A DNA stretch of 64,000 nucleotides from an uncultured Latescibacterota bacterium (GTDB lineage Bacteria > Latescibacterota > UBA2968 > UBA8231). The notes under the pieces are model-generated. The model was not told where the DNA came from. It saw only the letters and a list, made by a program, of their open reading frames with translations, and made no database searches. The DNA lies in the NCBI GenBank assembly GCA_958295495.1, contig OY282352.1, positions 5,278,049 to 5,342,048 on the forward strand. Direction: 5' to 3'. Positions 1 to 8,317 of this stretch are shown one piece after another. The position numbers were made by a program, and so were the translations under genes. The first letter of the stretch is position 1; the number at the start of each line of letters is the position of its first letter.

Positions 1-1667
1 ATAAACACTCCAAACCCCGAGACGCGGTCCCCGCCGACAAACACCCAGTCGTCGATCCCATCGGCGTTGAGATCGCCCACCACCACCGGCGAGCGACGCA
101 ACAGCCGATCATCATACAGCACCTCGGTTTCTACGCGGTCTCCAGCCCCCTTGCGCTGCAAGACGAGCCCCTTGCTCCCTTCGAGTATATCGCGTGTGAA
201 CTCGGTGAGGAAATCCACCTGCCCATCGCCATCAAAATCGCCCACCCCTAACGGCTCCAACTCTTCATCGACTTCAAAGATCTCACCTCGCTGAAACGCT
301 TCGGGCTGGCGGCTCTGCAACGCCTTGCCCAAAGGAGCCACAATCCACCCGCGCGCCAGACCGGGGAACGGCTTCCAGAACACGGCTACGGTCCCATCGC
401 CAGTAAAGTCGCCAATGTGCCTGGGCACATAGTGTTCGGAATACGCCACCTCAGCGGACGTCCACCCCCCCTGTGCGACCTCCCAGACGGCTAACGTGCT
501 AAAAAACTTCGCCCTACCCTCAATTGCTTCCTCTAAAGTGCCTTCAAACGTAGCCCCCCCGACCAACAACTCGACCCGGCCGTCGCCATCCCAATCGGCC
601 ACACCACGGATCGATCGGTCGATCTGCACGAGCACCTCCACTTGGAGGTCCGGGCCGATAGACCACACTTCGGTTGAGGGCTCCCGGTTGCCTCTCGATA
701 GGGCGATTTCGTCTTGACCATCGCCGGTCAAATCGGCACCAAGCACCTTTAAGACCCCCCCCCCTGTGGCGGCTACAGGCCCGCGCTCCAAGGCCCCGTG
801 CCCGTCATTGACGGCCATCAGCCAGCCCGTTTTAGTCTTAGGAGGCCCATGCTTATTAACTACTTTCGTTCCCCAGAGGCCGAACAGGTCTAAGTCGCCA
901 TCGCCATCCAAGTCCGTCAACACGTTGCCCCCTGCCTCCCCTAGATACCCTCCTCCATCTCCTGCATGAACTGCTTCCCCTATACCCGGGGCAATCGGAT
1001 AGAACACCGGCGGCGCAAAAAGGCCAGCCCCCGCAAGGCCAAAGTAGTACTCTACGGCTGGCGGCGGCTGTTCCCCCTGTAGCAGCTCTTCCACGCCGGT
1101 CAACTCGATCCAGTCGATCTCAAACGCCTCCACCACCTCGGTATCCAAATCAAAGCCCAGCATAAAACTGAGCCGAATGTTTTTTAACAGGCCCTCCCAT
1201 CCATATTGACCATCCAACGAGACCTCCACTTCCTGCCACTCGGTGGTATAGACTATTCGTTGGCGGGGGACTTCTACGCCAAGACTAAAAAAATCATGAC
1301 CTGAAGCGCTGTCCCATTCCATCGCAAAAGTACCCTCGGTAGGGCGGTCATGGACGGTGCGGCAGCGGATGCGAACCCGGTCGAACAGACCCGAATCGTA
1401 CCCGATGGGTGAAGAAACCACTTCGACACTCGGCTGGGAGGGGCGGAAACTCTTGGTGGCCGCGGGATCGACCCGGATCCGCCACACCCCATCGTCGATC
1501 GTCCCCGGAAACTGGTGAAATTCACGCGTACCCCCCCTACCGCTCCATACATGAGCTTCTTTGGCGGTCCACCCTTGGGTCGTCCCGTCGTCGAACTCCC
1601 ACCGAATCGCCTCGGCGAGGCTACTCCACAGCACAAGCCCTACAACAGCGGCGAACTTCAGCATCAT
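1..1667 (-). CDS. Secreted FG-GAP/VCBS repeat protein, 3' end beyond window
   Basis: The frame opens with ATG at 1667, preceded by an AAGGA ribosome site, and runs without a stop to the left edge, so about 555 residues are visible and the C-terminus is missing. Residues 1-20 form a signal peptide with a likely cut after SLAEA. A non-repeat, probably beta-sandwich region follows up to about residue 190, then FG-GAP/VCBS blades with calcium-binding-type loops such as DLDGDGDLDLFG, DLTGDGQDEIAL, DWDGDGRVELLV and DFDGDGQVDFLT. The protein is therefore exported and probably folds as a beta-propeller. The visible C-terminal part is closely similar to the broken copy at 2729-4045 (shared RSPVV-DLN-DG-DDW-FVGGDR segment). 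By analogy with that copy it probably ends in a FlgD-like Ig tail. No enzymatic role can be read from it. Confidence 0.8.
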   Translation of the reverse strand, partial: MMLKFAAVVGLVLWSSLAEAIRWEFDDGTTQGWTAKEAHVWSGRGGTREFHQFPGTIDDGVWRIRVDPAATKSFRPSQPSVEVVSSPIGYDSGLFDRVRIRCRTVHDRPTEGTFAMEWDSASGHDFFSLGVEVPRQRIVYTTEWQEVEVSLDGQYGWEGLLKNIRLSFMLGFDLDTEVVEAFEIDWIELTGVEELLQGEQPPPAVEYYFGLAGAGLFAPPVFYPIAPGIGEAVHAGDGGGYLGEAGGNVLTDLDGDGDLDLFGLWGTKVVNKHGPPKTKTGWLMAVNDGHGALERGPVAATGGGVLKVLGADLTGDGQDEIALSRGNREPSTEVWSIGPDLQVEVLVQIDRSIRGVADWDGDGRVELLVGGATFEGTLEEAIEGRAKFFSTLAVWEVAQGGWTSAEVAYSEHYVPRHIGDFTGDGTVAVFWKPFPGLARGWIVAPLGKALQSRQPEAFQRGEIFEVDEELEPLGVGDFDGDGQVDFLTEFTRDILEGSKGLVLQRKGAGDRVETEVLYDDRLLRRSPVVVGDLNADGIDDWVFVGGDRVSGFGVF

Positions 1668-1828
1668 AGCACCGATCCTTTCTAACAGGTAACATTCCGA
1701 CAGGCTGCGCCCTATCCGTGAAATACGAAGGGGAAAGGGGGGCCGGCTCAACGGCTACGATTAAACCGGCCCTTTACCCCATGAGCAGGAGAAACGACCT
1801 TACAGCCGCTAAGGTCGTCTCAGATATT

Positions 1829-2110
1829 TCAAGCGCAGCAGTAGTTCCCCCCGCACCTTGTCACGCAGTTCGAGTCCATCCAACAGTCCTGACATATCCT
1901 CGACTCTGCCCCGTTCGTGTCCTCGTCGCAACCTGCGCTGTACCCCTTGTCTCTTATCCAACTTCTTTCGTCGCACTCGGCTTCGACTTCCTTGGCCCCG
2001 AGCAGGATGGCGATCCCCGTGAGGGCGCTGATGACCCACCCCAAACCCAAACCCTGACGAGCCGGCACCAACCCGCTCGACGACGTGAAGAATTCCCGCA
2101 AGCTCTGCAT
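1829..2110 (-). CDS. Small cysteine-rich exported protein, unknown function
   Basis: A 93-residue product starting at ATG 2110 with a good GGAAGAG ribosome site five bases upstream. Residues about 24-44 form a hydrophobic segment ending in GAKEVEA, which looks like a signal peptide or a single membrane anchor. The remaining ~48 residues contain eight cysteines, with two adjacent ones at the C-terminus (GGNYCCA), an arrangement that could make up to four disulfides. I do not recognise the family. Support is the start site, the signal-like segment and the non-random cysteine pattern; overlapping frames on both strands are also open, so the call is not certain. Confidence 0.55.
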   Translation of the reverse strand: MQSLREFFTSSSGLVPARQGLGLGWVISALTGIAILLGAKEVEAECDERSWIRDKGYSAGCDEDTNGAESRICQDCWMDSNCVTRCGGNYCCA

Positions 2111-2271
2111 GATTCTCTTCCAGTACGCCTGCGGCCTAGTGCCTCTGCCGCTACGCGACTGGAAGTGAGGGTTGAAAAACGACCGAGACGAGTTTCGTAT
2201 TCCCTCCTTTCTTTCGCATCAGCCTCGGCTCTACGGATTATATATGCAAGTTGCGTGCCAAAAAGCAGGAC

Positions 2272-2305
2272 ACGCACAAAAAAATCCTTTAGGATTATCC
2301 TAAAG
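2272..2305 (-). terminator. Possible rho-independent terminator (minus strand)
   Basis: The inverted repeat CTTTAGGAT / ATCCTAAAG spans 2287-2305. On the minus strand it is followed by GGATTTTTTTG, the layout of an intrinsic terminator. The stem is AT-rich and the loop minimal. It would end transcription coming from the right, upstream of the cysteine-rich gene. Confidence 0.45.
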
Positions 2306-2386
2306 AATTGAAAAATATAGGAGTTATAAAAGTATAATTTTTCTTTTATAGGCCTTGCATTCACTATGGGTTCAATGGAGGAATAT

Positions 2387-2450
2387 GTTTTTTCGTATTA
2401 AATACGACTTTTTTCGTATTAAATACGACTTTATACGACTTTATACGACT
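2387..2450. repeat. Short tandem repeats with imperfect palindromes
   Basis: Two copies of a 21-base unit begin at 2394 and 2415. Each contains CGTATTAAATACG, a 13-base palindrome apart from its centre. They run into 10-base units TTATACGACT at 2431-2440 and 2441-2450. The stretch is AT-rich and lies in the roughly 600-base gap between the cysteine-rich gene and the FG-GAP pseudogene. It could be a protein-binding site array or replication-slippage debris; nothing decides between these. Confidence 0.7.
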
Positions 2451-2547
2451 TTTCATCCACGGCGCGAAACCGAAGGCGGCCGTGGCCGAACAGACCCTAC
2501 CGCCGGTCAAATACGCCCCGAGATGGGCCGCCGCGCGGTCCGTGAAC

Positions 2548-2682
2548 TCAAAGGGAGTCGAAGGGAACTTGCAAAAGCTGCGGATCCTCCAGCGAGACCG
2601 CGTCGCGCACTTCAACGTGATGCACATCCATCAACTCTAAGGCCAAGTCGATCTCGTCGCGGCCATCCCATGTCCCTTTCAT
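2548..2682 (-). CDS. Orphan 44-codon reading frame, doubtful
   Basis: An ATG at 2682 opens a 44-residue frame (MKGTWDGRDEIDL at the start, QVPFDSL at the end) with GAGGA upstream. Its first part contains about 18 bases identical to the FlgD-tail coding sequence (the WDGRDE motif also found at about 4190 and 2830), so it may be a scrap of the FG-GAP genes fused to other sequence rather than a functional gene. Confidence 0.2.
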   Translation of the reverse strand: MKGTWDGRDEIDLALELMDVHHVEVRDAVSLEDPQLLQVPFDSL

Positions 2683-2728
2683 GCCGTCTCATCCTCGTTC
2701 GAGTCAAATAGCTCAAAAGAAGGGCTGC

Positions 2729-4045
2729 TCACGGCAGCTTGGTCGTCTTTTTCGCTTCCACCCGCCCATCCACTTCAACCTTATAGATATACACCCCAGC
2801 GGCCACCGCTTGGCCCGCCGCGTCGCGGCCATCCCATACAAACCGATGCGGCCCCGCCTCCAGCGACCCGTCCCACACCTGACGCACCCGACGACCCAAC
2901 ACGTCGTACACCGTCAGCGACACCCCCGCCGCGTCCTTGGCCAACTCAAGGGGGATCACCACCGCCGGATTGAACGGATTGGGATAGCTGTCGCCGAGCC
3001 GATGTTGCGCTGGTTGCGCTGCCGCCGGCGTCAACACGGCGGTCATCTGCTCCCCCACCGAACTCTTCAACACTTGCACCCCGCCCAAGAGGGGATTTAA
3101 CACGACCAAGTCGAGGTCTCCGTCGCCATCGACATCCCCTGGCAGCACCTGTACCCCATCGCCGGCCAACCGATGCCGCTCCACCTCCTTGGCCGGATTC
3201 GCACCCCCACCCCATTCGACAAATACCCCAAAGCCCGAAGCGCGGTCTCCGCCGACAAACGCCCAATCGTCCACCCCGTCCCCGTTGAGGTCGCGCACCA
3301 CGACCGGCGAGCGGAGAAACAGCCGCGCATCATACAGCACCTGCTCTTCTACGCCGCCCCCGGATCGGCGACTCCGCACCACCAGTCCCTTGCGTTGTTC
3401 GGTGCCCTCGTAGCCCAGGGCCGTCAGCAAGTCCACATGCCCATTGCCATCCAAATCGCCTCCATACAAGAAAAGAGGCCCACCATCCAACTCGAAGGCC
3501 AATGGCTCGTCCACTAAGGCCACTTCGCCCAAGCGAGTTACCTTCCATAGGTACGCATCGCCGAAGACCGACATCCATAGCCCCTCCAGCATCCCATTGC
3601 CGGTCAGGTCGCCGATCTGATAGAGGTAAAGGGTACTGGTACCGTTTTCAGGTTTCGCCGACTGCGAGGCCGACCATATCCCGTTTGTTACATCCCAGAA
3701 CTCGAAATGGGACTCGCCGTCCACGGGATGTCCGTTTGCATCGTATTCGATCTCTGTGGAAAAGAGTTCGACAGCGCCGTCGCCATCCCAATCCGCTAGG
3801 CCCTTAAACAAGCGATCGCTTAGCTGCATAAGTACCTCGATTTGAAGGTCTGATCCCATAGACACAACCGCTATGTCAGGCCAGCCAGCCAGCACGATCT
3901 CGTCGGTGCCATTACCGGTCAAGTCACCCGCATGTACCCTTAATAAGGCATTCAGGCCCGTCGTCTCTTCTGTGAGTACAGGTTCAAAGGCCCCTTCACC
4001 ATCATTGAGGGCCACAACCCAACCGGAGGTCAGCACGAGAATGAC
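2729..4045 (-). pseudogene. FG-GAP/FlgD-tail protein, N-terminus lost
   Basis: The minus-strand frame from about 4045 to the stop at 2729 is a second copy of the protein encoded at 1-1667. It has FG-GAP loops (DLTGNGTDEIVL, DWDGDGAVELF, DLDGNGHVDLLT, DVDGDGDLDLVV), then a linker with the YPNPFNP motif and a FlgD-like Ig tail ending in KVEVDGRVEAKKTTKLP. Similarity starts abruptly at the equivalent of the second blade: signal peptide and N-terminal domain are absent. Upstream, the frame stays open to 4354 but reads antisense through an inverted tail fragment, so that part is meaningless. The copy was probably truncated by recombination. The YPNPFNP/FlgD tail resembles C-terminal regions of secreted FCB-group proteins. 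Confidence 0.7.
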
Positions 4046-4165
4046 ACCGAACCCTTGGCAATAACAAACGCCTGTATGTGGACGCTTGGTAAACTCCACC
4101 CTGCTCGGCGACAGGACGGGAAATTGAGTAACTCGCTCGCGGTGCGTGATCCCGAAGCTCGCCAA

Positions 4166-4300
4166 CTGCAAGCGGGTAGTCATCGATTTGTGTGGGATGG
4201 CCGCGACGAGAAGGGCAAGGCGGTGGCGGCTGGCGTGTATATCTATAAGGTCGAAATCGACGGACAGGTGGAAGCTAAGAAGACGACCAAGCTGCCTTGA
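4166..4300 (+). pseudogene. Stray FlgD-like Ig tail fragment, inverted
   Basis: On the plus strand the last 45 codons before the TGA at 4298-4300 read AGSHRFVWDGRDEKG ... KVEIDGQVEAKKTTKLP. This is nearly identical to the tail of the minus-strand copy ending at 2729 and in opposite orientation to it. Sequence upstream of 4160 does not continue the family. It is a remnant of a third copy and forms an inverted repeat with 2729-2860. Confidence 0.7.
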
Positions 4301-4346
4301 GGGGATGGAGTAGGGACAGATTTGAAACGTTAGGTCATGGAAAAAT

Positions 4347-4378
4347 GGCCCCACGGCGATGTTTTTTGCCGTGGGGCC
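4347..4378. terminator. Strong hairpin terminator, probably bidirectional
   Basis: A perfect 11-base stem GGCCCCACGGC / GCCGTGGGGCC encloses a loop of ten bases. It is followed by TTGTTG on the plus strand and CATTTTT on the minus strand. It separates the FG-GAP debris from the gene starting at 4498. Confidence 0.7.
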
Positions 4379-4497
4379 TTGTTGTGCGCGGTAATTAGAC
4401 GCTTTAATTAGGCACTACTCATTGGTGGAAAGGGTAGTTTGGCTTCGTAGAGGACTCCCAAGATGGCTATATCAACGAGCGGATTCAGGAGGAAACC

Positions 4498-6864
4498 ATG
4501 AGCAATTTTCTCAAGCGATACTTCCATTGGTTACACACGCGGTGGCCAGCCGGCGTGGTAGAGAAATTGCCGCGGGTGGATGAGCACGGGCAGAGCAATG
4601 TCCCCGGGCTGTACATCGTCGGCGACTTGACCGGGATCCCGCTGTTGAAGTTCTCAGCCGATACGGGCGCACGGGCCGTGCAGCACATCGCGGCCGACGA
4701 GGCATTCCAGCGCGGCAAGGGGCGGGAGGACGTCTTGGATTTGGCGATTGTCGGCGCGGGCGTTTCCGGCATGTCCGCAGCCTTGGAGGCGCGGGAGGCC
4801 GGGTTGTCATTTGTGCTTTTGGAGGCGACCGAGCCGTTTTCCACGCTGGTCAATTTCCCCAAGGGAAAGCCCATTTACACCTATCCCACCGAGATGGAGC
4901 CAGCCGGGCAAATCCGCTTTGCGGCCGAGGTCAAGGAGCCGCTGATCGCCGAGTTGCAAGAGCAGACCCTCGCCCAAGGCATTGAGCCGACTAGGGCGCG
5001 GGTCGAGCAGGTAAAGAGGCGGGGAGCTCACTTTGAATTGGAGATTCCGGGCCACGAGAATATCAAGGCCCGCCGCACGATCGTCGGGATCGGGCGCTCG
5101 GGCAACTTTCGCAAGCTAGGGGTGCCGGGCGAAAATCTGGACAAGGTTTTCAACCGCTTGCACGACCCGGTTGACTTCTGCGACAAAGACGTGCTGATCG
5201 TTGGCGGCGGCGACAGCGCCTTAGAGGCGGCCATTGCCATCGCCCAATGCGGAGGACGAGTGACCGTCTCCTACCGCAAGCCCGAATTTTCTCGCCCCAA
5301 ACCCGAAAACGTCGAAAAGCTAAACGTGCTCGCAGCCGATCCAATGGCCGACGTGGCCGTGGATACCCCTTCTTCCGAGCGGGTGACGACCAGCAGCGGT
5401 GCCTTTATGGAGGAGGGCCGCCAAGCGGGTTCGATCCGCCTGCTGATGGCCAGCCAAGTGCTGAGCATAGCGGAAGACGCGGTCGCGCTCAAAGACGCCG
5501 AGGGCCAACAACTGAGCCTGCCCAACGACGCGGTGTTTTCCATGATTGGGCGCGAGGCACCGCTCGAGTTCTTCCGCCGCTCGGGCGTCGAAATAAGCGG
5601 CGAAATGAAGAGCAAGCAGTGGTGGGGCTTTGGACTCTTCATGGCCTTTTGCTTTTTCGTCTATAACTGGAAGGCCGGCGGCGCACTGACCAAGCTCTTC
5701 AAAGGGGGTGAACTCTTCCCCTTCAACGTGCCCGAATGGATGCAGGGGCTGTCGGCCCAAGCGGCGGACCTGTCAACGCTCTTGGGCATTCTAACCTTCA
5801 ACCTCGGCAAGCCCGGTTTCTGGTACAGCGTACTCTATACGCTCTTGGTCGTCGTCTTCGGCTACCGGCGCATCGTGCGGCGGCGCACCCCTTACGTCAA
5901 GTGGCAGACCTTTTCGCTGGGGGCGGTACAGATCGCGCCGCTCTTTCTCCTGCCCTATATCGTCCTCCCCTATTTGGGCCACAACGGATTTTTCGATTCG
6001 GGTTGGGCCAAGACCGTCGCCGATGGACTCTTCCCGGTGGTCAATTACGACCACGGGCGCGAATACTGGCGGGCTTTTGGGCTGGTTTTGGCTTGGCCGC
6101 TCTTTGTGTGGAACGTCTTCAGCGGCGAGCCGCTGTGGTGGTGGCTGGTCATCGGCGCGGTGCAGACGTTTGTGGCCATCCCACTGCTCATCTACTTCTG
6201 GGGCAAGGGAGCCTATTGCGGCTGGATCTGTTCCTGCGGCGCACTCGCCGAGACCTTGGGCGACGCGCAGCGGCACAAGATGCCGCACGGGGCCTTCTGG
6301 AACAAGATGAACATCATAGGCCAAGTGATCCTCTTCCTGTGCGTGGTGATGCTCCTAGGGAGGATTGCAAGTTGGGTGTGGCCGGACACGGGCTTGGGTC
6401 AATGGGTGCGCGGGCTATACGAGGGCATGCTCTACGGCTGGCAGGTCTTAGGCATCCAGCTCAACTACAAATGGGCCATTGATCTGATGCTGGCGGGCGT
6501 AGTGGGCTACGGCGCGTACTTCTGGTTTAGCGGCCGGGTGTGGTGCCGCTTCGCCTGCCCGCTGGCGGCCCTGATGCACATCTACGCACGCTTCAGCCGC
6601 TTCCGCATCCTCGCCGACAAGAAAAAGTGCATCTCCTGCAATGTCTGCACCTCGGTGTGTCACCAAGGCATCGACATTATGAACTTCGCCAACAAGGGGC
6701 TGCCCATGGCCGACCCGGAGTGCGTGCGCTGTAGCGCGTGCGTGCAGTCCTGCCCGACGGGCGTGCTGGAATTTGGTCAGATCGACAAAAGCGGCAGGGT
6801 GATAAAAACCGACGGGCTGGCGGCATCGCCGGTGCGGATGAAGGAGGAGGGAACTAACCGCTAG
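4498..6864 (+). CDS. Fused FAD/NAD(P) flavoprotein and membrane polyferredoxin
   Basis: A 788-residue protein starting at ATG 4498 behind a strong AGGAGG site. Residues 1-65 carry a GLYIVGDLTG segment that normally closes the FAD domain of thioredoxin-reductase-like enzymes. A dinucleotide motif GAGVSG lies at 86-91 and a second one (IVGGGDSALEAA) near 235, so the flavoprotein looks circularly permuted. From about residue 370 several membrane helices follow, with a CGWICSCGA motif near 575 as in NapH/NosR/CcoG-type proteins. Two ferredoxin clusters are at about 711 (CISCNVCTSVCHQG) and 741 (CVRCSACVQSCPTG). It probably moves electrons from NAD(P)H to a membrane or periplasmic acceptor. The acceptor is unknown. 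It overlaps the convergent pap gene by 11 bases. Confidence 0.85.
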   Translation: MSNFLKRYFHWLHTRWPAGVVEKLPRVDEHGQSNVPGLYIVGDLTGIPLLKFSADTGARAVQHIAADEAFQRGKGREDVLDLAIVGAGVSGMSAALEAREAGLSFVLLEATEPFSTLVNFPKGKPIYTYPTEMEPAGQIRFAAEVKEPLIAELQEQTLAQGIEPTRARVEQVKRRGAHFELEIPGHENIKARRTIVGIGRSGNFRKLGVPGENLDKVFNRLHDPVDFCDKDVLIVGGGDSALEAAIAIAQCGGRVTVSYRKPEFSRPKPENVEKLNVLAADPMADVAVDTPSSERVTTSSGAFMEEGRQAGSIRLLMASQVLSIAEDAVALKDAEGQQLSLPNDAVFSMIGREAPLEFFRRSGVEISGEMKSKQWWGFGLFMAFCFFVYNWKAGGALTKLFKGGELFPFNVPEWMQGLSAQAADLSTLLGILTFNLGKPGFWYSVLYTLLVVVFGYRRIVRRRTPYVKWQTFSLGAVQIAPLFLLPYIVLPYLGHNGFFDSGWAKTVADGLFPVVNYDHGREYWRAFGLVLAWPLFVWNVFSGEPLWWWLVIGAVQTFVAIPLLIYFWGKGAYCGWICSCGALAETLGDAQRHKMPHGAFWNKMNIIGQVILFLCVVMLLGRIASWVWPDTGLGQWVRGLYEGMLYGWQVLGIQLNYKWAIDLMLAGVVGYGAYFWFSGRVWCRFACPLAALMHIYARFSRFRILADKKKCISCNVCTSVCHQGIDIMNFANKGLPMADPECVRCSACVQSCPTGVLEFGQIDKSGRVIKTDGLAASPVRMKEEGTNR

Positions 6865-8317
6865 CGAGTGCCTGCTCTAGCCGCTGGCAGAGCGTCTCGA
6901 GGACCTTGAGGCGGGCGAAGCGTTTGTCGGTGCCCTCCACCAAAGTCCAAGGAGCAGCGGGGGTGTGGGTGCGAGCTACCATGTCGTCAACAGCGGCCTC
7001 GTAATCGTCCCATTTCTCTCGGTTGCGCCAGTCTTCGTCGGTAATTTTCCAGCACTTGTGCGGGGTCGCCTGACGCGCCTTGAAGCGCCGGAGTTGCTCG
7101 TCCTTGTCTATGTGAATCCAGTATTTGGCCACCACCATGCCGTGGTCTATTAGCTGGTCCTCAAAATTGTTGATCTCGCCGTACGCCCGCTGCCAAGCCG
7201 CTTCGTCGGCAAAGCCCTCGACGCGCTCGACCAGCACCCGGCCATACCAACTGCGGTCGAAAATCGCCACCCGCCCTGCGCGCGGCAGGTGGCGCCAGAA
7301 GCGCCAGAGGTAGTGTTGGGTGTGCTCCTCGTCCGTGGGGGCCGTGACTTGGATGATTTGATAGATACAGGCGTCGAGAGCGACCGTCAGGCGCTGGATG
7401 ACCCCGCCCTTGCCCGCTGCATCGGCCCCCTCGAAAACCAAGACGGTCGAGACGCCTTTGCGGCGAGCCTGCTGAGTCAGGCGATAGAGCCGGCCTTGGC
7501 ATCGCTCTAGCAGGGCTTGGTACTCCTTCTTGGGCACCCGCTTTTCCATGTCCAACTGGGTCAGCACGTTGGGCGCACGCGGCCAGTCCGAGCCAACGCA
7601 CTTGGGGCGGCTCTTTTGGGCCAAGTGCCGGCGGATGGCGTCGCGCACGGCGCGAGCTACCACCAGCATGTAGTGGGGGTCGCTGCTTTCGACGACCTGC
7701 CAACGAGCACCGCTAGCGTTGGTCTTGTGCAGCAAGCGGTCGGCGGCCCGTTTGAACTCGTCGTAGTACTTCCAGCCCTCTTTGGTGCCCGCGGTCACCC
7801 GCCAGCGGGTCAGCGGGTTCCGCTCCAAGGCCGCAATGCGTTTCTGCCGCGCCTCTTTGTCCAAGTGAATCCACAACTTGATCAGCAGCGCACCATCGAC
7901 GACGAGCGCGTTTTCAAAGGCCGCGATGTGCTCGCTGTCGCGGTCAAAGGCCGCCTCATCGCTGTGCCCATGAGCCAAGTCGCGCAGCGGGCGGTCGTAC
8001 CAGCCGTTCAAGTATATGCCGATTGTTCCCTTCGGCGGCAGGGAGAGCCAGTAGCGCCAGTATTCCGGGCGCTCGCGCTCCTCTGCGGACGGCGGCTCAA
8101 AGGCGCAGACCGCGATGCGGCGCGAGTTCATCCACTGCCTGAGCACGTTGCTCGCCTCGCTCGTGCCAGCACCGGCGAAGCCACCCAAGACGATGAGAGT
8201 TGGAAAGCGAGCTTGGTGCAACCGCTCTTGAGCCGCGAGCAGTTCCGGGCGCAGTTCGGCTTCGAGCTTCTTGTATCGGCTGGGCGGAACGCTGCGCTCC
8301 AACTCGTTAGTTGCCAT
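6854..8317 (-). CDS. pap: Polyphosphate:AMP phosphotransferase (double PPK2 domain)
   Basis: A 487-residue protein with two tandem PPK2-type P-loop domains, the usual size for class II PPK2 enzymes that phosphorylate AMP to ADP with polyphosphate. The C-terminal half has an intact Walker A (FEGADAAGKGGVIQRL), the DRSWYGRVLVERV segment and a WHLP-type lid region. In the N-terminal half the equivalent loop reads GGFAGAGTSEASNVL, without the GKG lysine, a degeneration usual for the N-terminal domain of this subfamily. It acts in the cytoplasm in nucleotide/energy balance. It is divergent from aroC and convergent with the flavoprotein gene. Confidence 0.9.
   Translation of the reverse strand: MATNELERSVPPSRYKKLEAELRPELLAAQERLHQARFPTLIVLGGFAGAGTSEASNVLRQWMNSRRIAVCAFEPPSAEERERPEYWRYWLSLPPKGTIGIYLNGWYDRPLRDLAHGHSDEAAFDRDSEHIAAFENALVVDGALLIKLWIHLDKEARQKRIAALERNPLTRWRVTAGTKEGWKYYDEFKRAADRLLHKTNASGARWQVVESSDPHYMLVVARAVRDAIRRHLAQKSRPKCVGSDWPRAPNVLTQLDMEKRVPKKEYQALLERCQGRLYRLTQQARRKGVSTVLVFEGADAAGKGGVIQRLTVALDACIYQIIQVTAPTDEEHTQHYLWRFWRHLPRAGRVAIFDRSWYGRVLVERVEGFADEAAWQRAYGEINNFEDQLIDHGMVVAKYWIHIDKDEQLRRFKARQATPHKCWKITDEDWRNREKWDDYEAAVDDMVARTHTPAAPWTLVEGTDKRFARLKVLETLCQRLEQALASG

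Follow-up and report, generated by a model that had tools for sequence, protein, structure and literature searches.

Does a short, cysteine-rich open reading frame (ORF) represent a gene and, if so, what kind of product does it specify? This question is raised by positions 1829-2110 (minus strand) of a 64,000-nucleotide stretch of contig OY282352.1, here termed the window, from the genome of an uncultured Latescibacterota bacterium. A preliminary description, made from the letters alone, had drawn attention to the eight cysteines that follow a signal-like segment in the predicted protein of 93 amino acids (plus stop). Such a composition is weak proof of a gene, because five of the 553 stop-to-stop frames of at least 60 amino acids in the window, this one included, have eight cysteines in 48 residues. 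It is because of its conservation within a family that the ORF is, on comparative grounds, a genuine gene: judged from its sequence, it belongs to a family of cysteine-rich peptides that share an export-type leader and are encoded in many copies in this bacterium.

A multi-copy family of cysteine-rich peptides

The window's own genome is a single 5.97-Mb contig (completeness 94.8, contamination 8.9), in which a profile of the leader found 20 strong matches (E <= 1.3e-9) as well as weaker fragments. Five of these, cited like the other copies by genome coordinate (523861, 1761641, 1762381, 4439095 and 5276317), are long members with an FlgD_ig tail, recognised from a tail motif and, in one case, with Pfam. 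The other 15 are tail-less; the reading frame looks intact in 10 and broken in five, through an in-frame TAG (527407-527694), absence of the normal start (492048, 506857 and 522095) or a shift into a cysteine-poor frame (1763084). The TAG lies within the leader of its copy (L024), yet the promoter and activator sites are retained. At another locus of the same genome (L026, 4435783-4437993) the leader start is joined straight to the propeller gene described below, as though the peptide core had been deleted, and L033:1501-2481 and L039 are long leader-bearing proteins combining repeated cysteine modules with an FlgD_ig tail.

In the window copy, conservation among copies delimits the signal-like leader as codons 1-44 (1979-2110, minus strand; MQSLREFFTSSSGLVPARQGLGLGWVISALTGIAILLGAKEVEA), the hydrophobic segment of which terminates in an A-x-A-type site (VEA, followed by E). 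The variable mature part (1832-1978, minus strand) comprises 49 residues with eight cysteines, at positions 46, 61, 73, 76, 82, 86, 91 and 92, all C-terminal of the hydrophobic segment and spaced 14-11-2-5-3-4-0. Across the family, a leader of about 44 residues precedes a variable, cysteine-rich remainder of 35-58 residues, and an alignment of 16 short members has 21 invariant columns, 18 of them within the leader. This pairing of conserved leader with variable core is that of prochlorosin-like ribosomally synthesised and post-translationally modified peptides (RiPPs). Features of signal peptidase I substrates are present, in that the hydrophobic segment is followed in all 16 by A, V or T at -3 and by alanine at -1 (A44), and the peptide is, to judge by this leader, probably exported. 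Most leaders also have R-x-G before L or M and a hydrophobic stretch, but W rather than Glu at about +5, and so depart from the class III prepilin signal.

The 20 mature parts, with net charges ranging from -8 to +2, fall into three cysteine frameworks. Framework I (spacing ~14-11-2-5-3/4-4-0) has seven members, including the window peptide and three with ten cysteines; framework II (~5/6-5-10-0-7/8-6-1, with variants) has nine, and framework III (4-5-7-3-4) has four. The proposal that this is a new small protein with an export-type leader stands, as both leader and cysteines are conserved and no known family was matched: neither Pfam nor NCBIfam assigned the window protein to a family at E <= 1, PADLOC gave no family match and the PDB no sequence match to the family profile, and the only matches elsewhere were weak (Pfam RKP_N, E 0.19; PHROGs, E at least 0.064). 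Likewise, a search for RNA elements with Rfam returned nothing at gathering score in positions 1-5000 of the window. No C-terminal sorting domain was found with Pfam in the window peptide or in the 16 short members; the long members and the partner proteins have FlgD_ig above its cut-off and Por_Secre_tail and CHU_C below theirs, and SprA is present in the window's genome.

The differences between copies are distributed as expected of coding DNA. Over 45 pairs of 10 own-genome copies, the leaders are on average 0.87 identical in nucleotides and the mature parts 0.66, with pooled ratios of nonsynonymous to synonymous differences per site (pN/pS) of 0.26 in the leader, 0.74 in the mature part and 0.54 at the start of the propeller gene. 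In five close pairs, one of them between species, the pooled ratio is 0.10 in the leader and 0.92 in the mature part, the two differing in nonsynonymous change at P = 8e-29, and 39 of 40 aligned cysteine positions are conserved, against 113 of 188 for other residues (P = 5e-7). The homologues for which the preliminary description suggested looking therefore exist, and the lack of conservation and non-coding substitution pattern that it named as fatal to its claim are absent. Its 'good ribosome site' is present, but the window copy (...CTGGAAGAGAATC-ATG) is weaker in this respect than several paralogs (...AGGAGAAGAGAATC-ATG). A chance ORF is ruled out by the conservation and the coding substitution pattern, and an overlapping plus-strand ORF (1718-2311) is disfavoured as the real gene, since it is the minus strand that carries the conserved leader, the promoter and the operon partner.

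Some pairs confine most of their differences to the mature part. For instance, the neighbouring copies 5275611 and 5280158, the latter being that of the window, are identical at 131 of 132 leader, 111 of 147 mature and 567 of 587 propeller-start positions, and a pair from another species (L050) is identical at 200 of 200 upstream, 131 of 132 leader, 97 of 138 mature, 123 of 125 post-stop and 561 of 595 propeller positions. In L047/L046b and 495294/510209, the flanks have diverged along with the cores. Positive selection is not claimed: pN is larger than pS in some of the close pairs, but the four pairs given a Fisher test yielded non-significant P values of 0.09-0.47, and the pooled ratio is 0.92. 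A diversity-generating retroelement was set aside on inspection by eye, the aligned differences being spread over more than one base; no search aimed at a reverse transcriptase was made.

The leader occurs in six of the 11 genomes of the genus, the window's own counted (E <= 0.01), and in eight of the 47 of the class (E <= 0.001), the two from outside the genus being weak matches that are again followed by cysteines. A scan of 84,980 species genomes, based on two short patterns that distant members may escape, confirmed five loci, four of them in two metagenome-assembled genomes (MAGs) that bear the name Latescibacterota and the fifth in a record labelled Gemmatimonadetes. To go by their names, the carrier MAGs may derive from sponges or corals. 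A viral origin was also considered and rejected, as a scan of viral contigs gave 31 pattern-matching stretches, none of which coded for a relative.

Operon partner, putative promoter and candidate maturation genes

Downstream in the operon lies a gene for a partner protein, of which the window holds the N-terminal 555 residues (1-1667, minus strand): a signal-like start, an FDDGT domain and FG-GAP repeats, recognised with Pfam and by comparison with sister propeller proteins. The sisters end in an FlgD_ig tail similar to those of the type IX secretion system (T9SS), a region that for the window partner falls beyond the window. Of the 15 tail-less leader matches in the genome, 13 have an FDDGT/FG-GAP propeller gene immediately 3' of them and in the same orientation, 510209 is parted from its propeller gene by a DDE transposase and 519211 has no propeller gene; at L046-L050, a propeller gene follows each leader gene (7/7). 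The spacer from peptide stop to near the partner start is 95-168 bases in eight of 10 copies, and no immunity-type gene was noticed between the two. The intervening transposase (L023:10613-11707) has a similar counterpart at L029:12790-13926. The propeller family is broader than the leader, being found in 13 of the 47 class genomes and at 23 places in the window's own; among 27 propeller loci inspected, the gene start could be placed in 17, and in five of these a leader gene lies no more than 1.5 kb upstream. When the partner alignment was compared with PDB sequences, FlgD domains were matched, as were parathion hydrolase and cartilage acidic protein 1 (E 0.03-0.09); a structure model of the partner was left unused owing to a mean predicted local distance difference test score (pLDDT) of 45.5.

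Approximately 150 bases 5' of the ATG, a pattern match indicates a putative sigma-54 (-24/-12) promoter, TGGCACGCAACTTGC (GG-N10-GC; 2246-2260, minus strand). Beyond it lie two copies of a palindromic presumed activator site, TCGTATTAAATACGA (2393-2407 and 2414-2428), and further TACGA half-sites (2434-2438 and 2444-2448). Between activator sites and promoter is a hairpin, TCCTTTAGGATTATCCTAAAGAA (2281-2310, minus strand), noted by eye; in most other copies its stem, similarly judged, is fuller and followed by a run of T, resembling a terminator. There are 12 occurrences of the palindrome TCGTATTWAATACGA in the genome, at seven places, every one ~295-345 bases 5' of a leader gene and followed by a putative sigma-54 promoter, and a reversed control of the pattern does not occur. 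The sigma-54 pattern TGGYACGNNNYTTGC has 16 genome matches (control, four), eight of which are 5' of leader genes.

No sigma-54 regulator is encoded within the window. The regulator adjoining 4429608 has Reg_prop and Sigma54_activat domains, with HTH_8 just under its cut-off; regulators alike by sequence adjoin two more clusters, and a remnant adjoins a third. At all nine loci with recognisable motifs, which are duplicated copies rather than independent cases, the type of DNA-binding end matches the type of upstream site, TCGTA half-sites accompanying the five ends of NPERLRSR type and CCAC/GTGG sites the four of HPE[KR]LRYR type. The peptide operons thus look, from their sequences, to have a private sigma-54-type switch. 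The one regulator examined in this respect, in which a Reg_prop propeller is joined to a sigma-54 activator and to Y_Y_Y (L026:1018-4179), lacks a strongly hydrophobic stretch (highest 19-residue mean 1.31), and is therefore possibly a cytoplasmic propeller sensor.

Candidate maturation genes adjoin several relatives. In the window's own genome, genes for an FMN_bind-like protein, an A24 peptidase and two thioredoxins follow the peptide-propeller operon of 495294, in that order (~497.8-500.7 kb). The order A24 peptidase, FMN_bind-like, thioredoxin-like 1, thioredoxin-like 2, leader peptide, propeller is found in G002 (L145) and in G010 C10 (L144, with the A24 gene over two frames), C96 (L143) and C97 (L142), the A24 gene of the last two being cut by the contig end. 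Smaller sets comprise A24, thioredoxin and peptide in G003 C13 (L147), a thioredoxin 5' of the peptide at a contig end in G003 C262 (L146), an A24 fragment 5' of the peptide in G003 C312 (L038), and thioredoxin, A24 and peptide in G010 C25 (L148). In G043 C76 (L149), from another family, the order is ApbE, FMN_bind-like, two thioredoxins, A24, peptide.

The A24 proteins, membrane peptidases of the prepilin/preflagellin type, match Peptidase_A24 at E 2e-5 to 9e-8, above the cut-off in two of three cases, and the aspartates D35 and D95, which we take to be catalytic, are invariant in 5/5 sequences. The FMN_bind matches (E 0.004-0.006) are below the cut-off, and the own-genome protein has no match, but carries a DGITGAT motif seen by eye. 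The thioredoxin proteins contain CxxC and match AhpC-TSA (to E 2e-18) and, under the cut-off, MauD (E 1.3e-11 to 1e-5) and ResA; one weakly resembles PedC_BrcD, a model of bacteriocin-maturation disulfide isomerases (E 2.7e-4, far under the cut-off). As the window's genome has no match to DSBA, Thioredoxin_4 or VKOR, a private oxidation route would be useful. No known RiPP-modifying enzyme was present among 28 neighbour proteins run against Pfam; a genome-wide search was not made. This gene content suggests that a private set of peptidase, thioredoxin and flavin proteins probably completes the peptides.

Other features of the window were noted. Upstream of the peptide gene, a short remnant (2548-2682, minus strand) resembles part of a DUF4159 protein that accompanies other clusters. 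A 136-nt inverted repeat, 82% complementary (2728-2863 and 4166-4301), flanks a rearranged FG-GAP/FlgD_ig gene (2729-4354, minus strand), and an FlgD_ig-like piece is found on the plus strand at 4055-4300. Positions 4498-6864 encode a 788-residue protein uniting pyridine-nucleotide-disulfide oxidoreductase, Fer4_5 and 4Fe-4S domains, and 6854-8317 a 487-residue protein with two PPK2 stretches.

Competing explanations for the peptides

The explanation preferred here, by a judgement that tips only just beyond the balance, is that these are exported disulfide-rich recognition or effector peptides with a propeller protein beside them and a private sigma-54 switch, one maturation set being used for many substrates. 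The leader would be the handle that allows this sharing. It could be removed by the A24 peptidase, perhaps at R-x-G before L and the hydrophobic stretch, and/or by signal peptidase I at A44, with the thioredoxin and flavin proteins forming or proof-reading disulfides. The folded peptide might then work outside the cell next to the propeller protein, as a diversified module for recognition or effector action towards neighbours or an animal host, which is the least certain step. The sorting-type tail of the propeller partner, together with multi-module members that have a tail of their own, favours an extracellular binding or effector role.

A number of observations weigh against this explanation. 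Confidence is held down by two of them in particular: the contrast in variation is missing in some pairs, and the thioredoxin link is not exclusive, as thioredoxin-like matches also adjoin four propeller loci that have no leader (L086, L088, L089 and L101). Copy 530915 and the window copy are 0.93 identical in both the mature part (136/147) and the propeller gene (520/559), and 510209 and 519211 have alike mature parts (98/105) within unrelated flanks. The mature part exceeds the leader in synonymous change as well (P = 0.015) and pooled core pN does not exceed pS, so that recombination may account for part of the variation, with recombination or conversion perhaps contributing to that of the core; in the between-species pair, core pN/pS is 0.46. 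Maturation genes adjoin just one of the six own-genome clusters examined, and are found neither in the window nor elsewhere in the 160 kb covered, and their family matches are mostly weak, A24 being near its cut-off, FMN_bind under it, and MauD, ResA, FlaK and RnfG far under theirs. Additionally, five of the 11 genus genomes are without the leader, the leader matches at L147 (E 2.8e-4), L148 (E 3.6e-4) and L149 (E 2.0e-5) are weak, and the operon copies are duplicates rather than independent instances.

A more specific, conotoxin-like arrangement is put forward tentatively, as one that could hold but probably does not in full. In it, hypervariable disulfide-rich peptides encoded across the genome would share a private apparatus for export and oxidation, made up of an A24 leader peptidase, two thioredoxins, an FMN-binding electron carrier and sometimes ApbE. 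A dedicated Reg_prop/sigma-54 regulon would switch these peptides on along with a surface propeller protein, and they would be used against neighbours or in interactions with an animal host.

That the peptides are bacteriocins or toxins, secreted as disulfide-stabilised antimicrobials of defensin or laterosporulin type against competing bacteria, is unlikely, even though they are small, cysteine-rich and present in many variants, and one thioredoxin weakly matches PedC_BrcD. A structure model of the precursor is of poor quality over the leader and of fair quality beginning at residue 51 (pLDDT block means 70-88), with the order strand-helix-strand-strand. In a structural second look at the PDB, rows three to five were three laterosporulin bacteriocins (Z 2.6-2.7, with no row above 2.8), but values of Z < 3 are no evidence of kinship and Foldseek gave nothing at E <= 0.001, results that speak only to the fold families in the returned lists. 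Most antimicrobial peptides of the cationic kind also differ in charge from the range of -8 to +2 found here, and an immunity-type gene was not noticed between peptide and propeller gene.

Improbable, too, is a role as the light-chain-like subunit of a redox enzyme, in which peptide and propeller protein would form a pair like that of methylamine dehydrogenase, matured by a MauD-like thioredoxin. In that enzyme, a propeller heavy chain is combined with a cysteine-rich light chain that has a long leader, and here likewise a small cysteine-rich gene adjoins a propeller gene and MauD is among the best thioredoxin families, all under the cut-off. Against this, at E <= 1 the peptides have no Pfam match to the methylamine dehydrogenase light chain, their core varies too much for a chain that carries a cofactor, and the propeller is of the FG-GAP type with an FlgD_ig tail. 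Very improbable is the suggestion that the cysteines are metal ligands rather than disulfide partners: the genome's lack of DSBA, Thioredoxin_4 and VKOR matches and the C-x2-C of framework I would suit a metal binder, but the spacing varies over three frameworks, adjacent CC pairs occur, there is no common ligand pattern, and thioredoxin-fold genes adjoin several relatives.

Least credence is given to a decaying family of duplicated, recombining repeats with cores in relaxed drift rather than functional diversification, to which the broken copies, the leader start fused to the propeller gene at 4435783, the transposase within one cassette and a core pN/pS near 1 would point, as cysteines are kept far better than other residues, leader pN/pS is 0.10-0.26, promoter and activator sites are retained, and the between-species pair is constrained (0.46).

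Comparison with known systems and implications

Under the preferred explanation of exported recognition or effector peptides, the family invites comparison with several known systems. Prochlorosins, the lanthipeptides of marine picocyanobacteria, are similar in that numerous substrates, each with a conserved leader joined to a variable core containing cysteines, are thought to be served by one maturation set. The leader here is instead hydrophobic and of export type, an A24 peptidase, thioredoxins and a flavoprotein take the place of the lanthipeptide synthetase, no such synthetase is present among the 28 neighbours run against Pfam, and nothing points to lanthionine. Conotoxins also combine a conserved signal region with a variable disulfide-rich mature part in few cysteine frameworks, but are animal venom peptides, with which no kinship is claimed. 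The MauA/MauB/MauD system of methylamine dehydrogenase likewise has a small cysteine-rich chain, a propeller protein and a MauD-like thioredoxin; the Latescibacterota family differs in having no light-chain family match, a variable core, an FG-GAP propeller, and an extra A24 peptidase and FMN_bind-like protein. Laterosporulins, which are defensin-like bacteriocins, are alike in their ~50 residues, cysteine richness and weakly similar predicted fold; by contrast, they are described as leaderless, fall below Z of 3 and have no sequence kinship to the window family. Type IV prepilins with their A24 peptidases share a charged N-terminus, R-x-G before the hydrophobic stretch (in most leaders) and a nearby A24 gene (at several loci), but here there is no Glu at +5, seven additional residues lie between the invariant SG and the hydrophobic stretch, and pilus assembly genes were not noticed among the scanned neighbours.

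Literature searches, judged by titles and the beginnings of abstracts, found no paper on such a peptide family. Sponge-associated Latescibacterota have been described (PMC12993501), in the available part of which the words 'secretion', 'sigma' and 'adhesin' do not occur. If the preferred explanation is true, these genes would add a bacterial peptide system whose parts are unusually combined, in which a prepilin-type peptidase and a flavin/thioredoxin set are apparently dedicated to variable disulfide-rich peptides; no such system was found for the phylum Latescibacterota in the literature searches. The leader and the regulon palindrome would make further members easy to find and would predict co-switched genes, and the making of disulfide-rich peptides in uncultured bacteria without a recognisable DsbA or VKOR would become testable.
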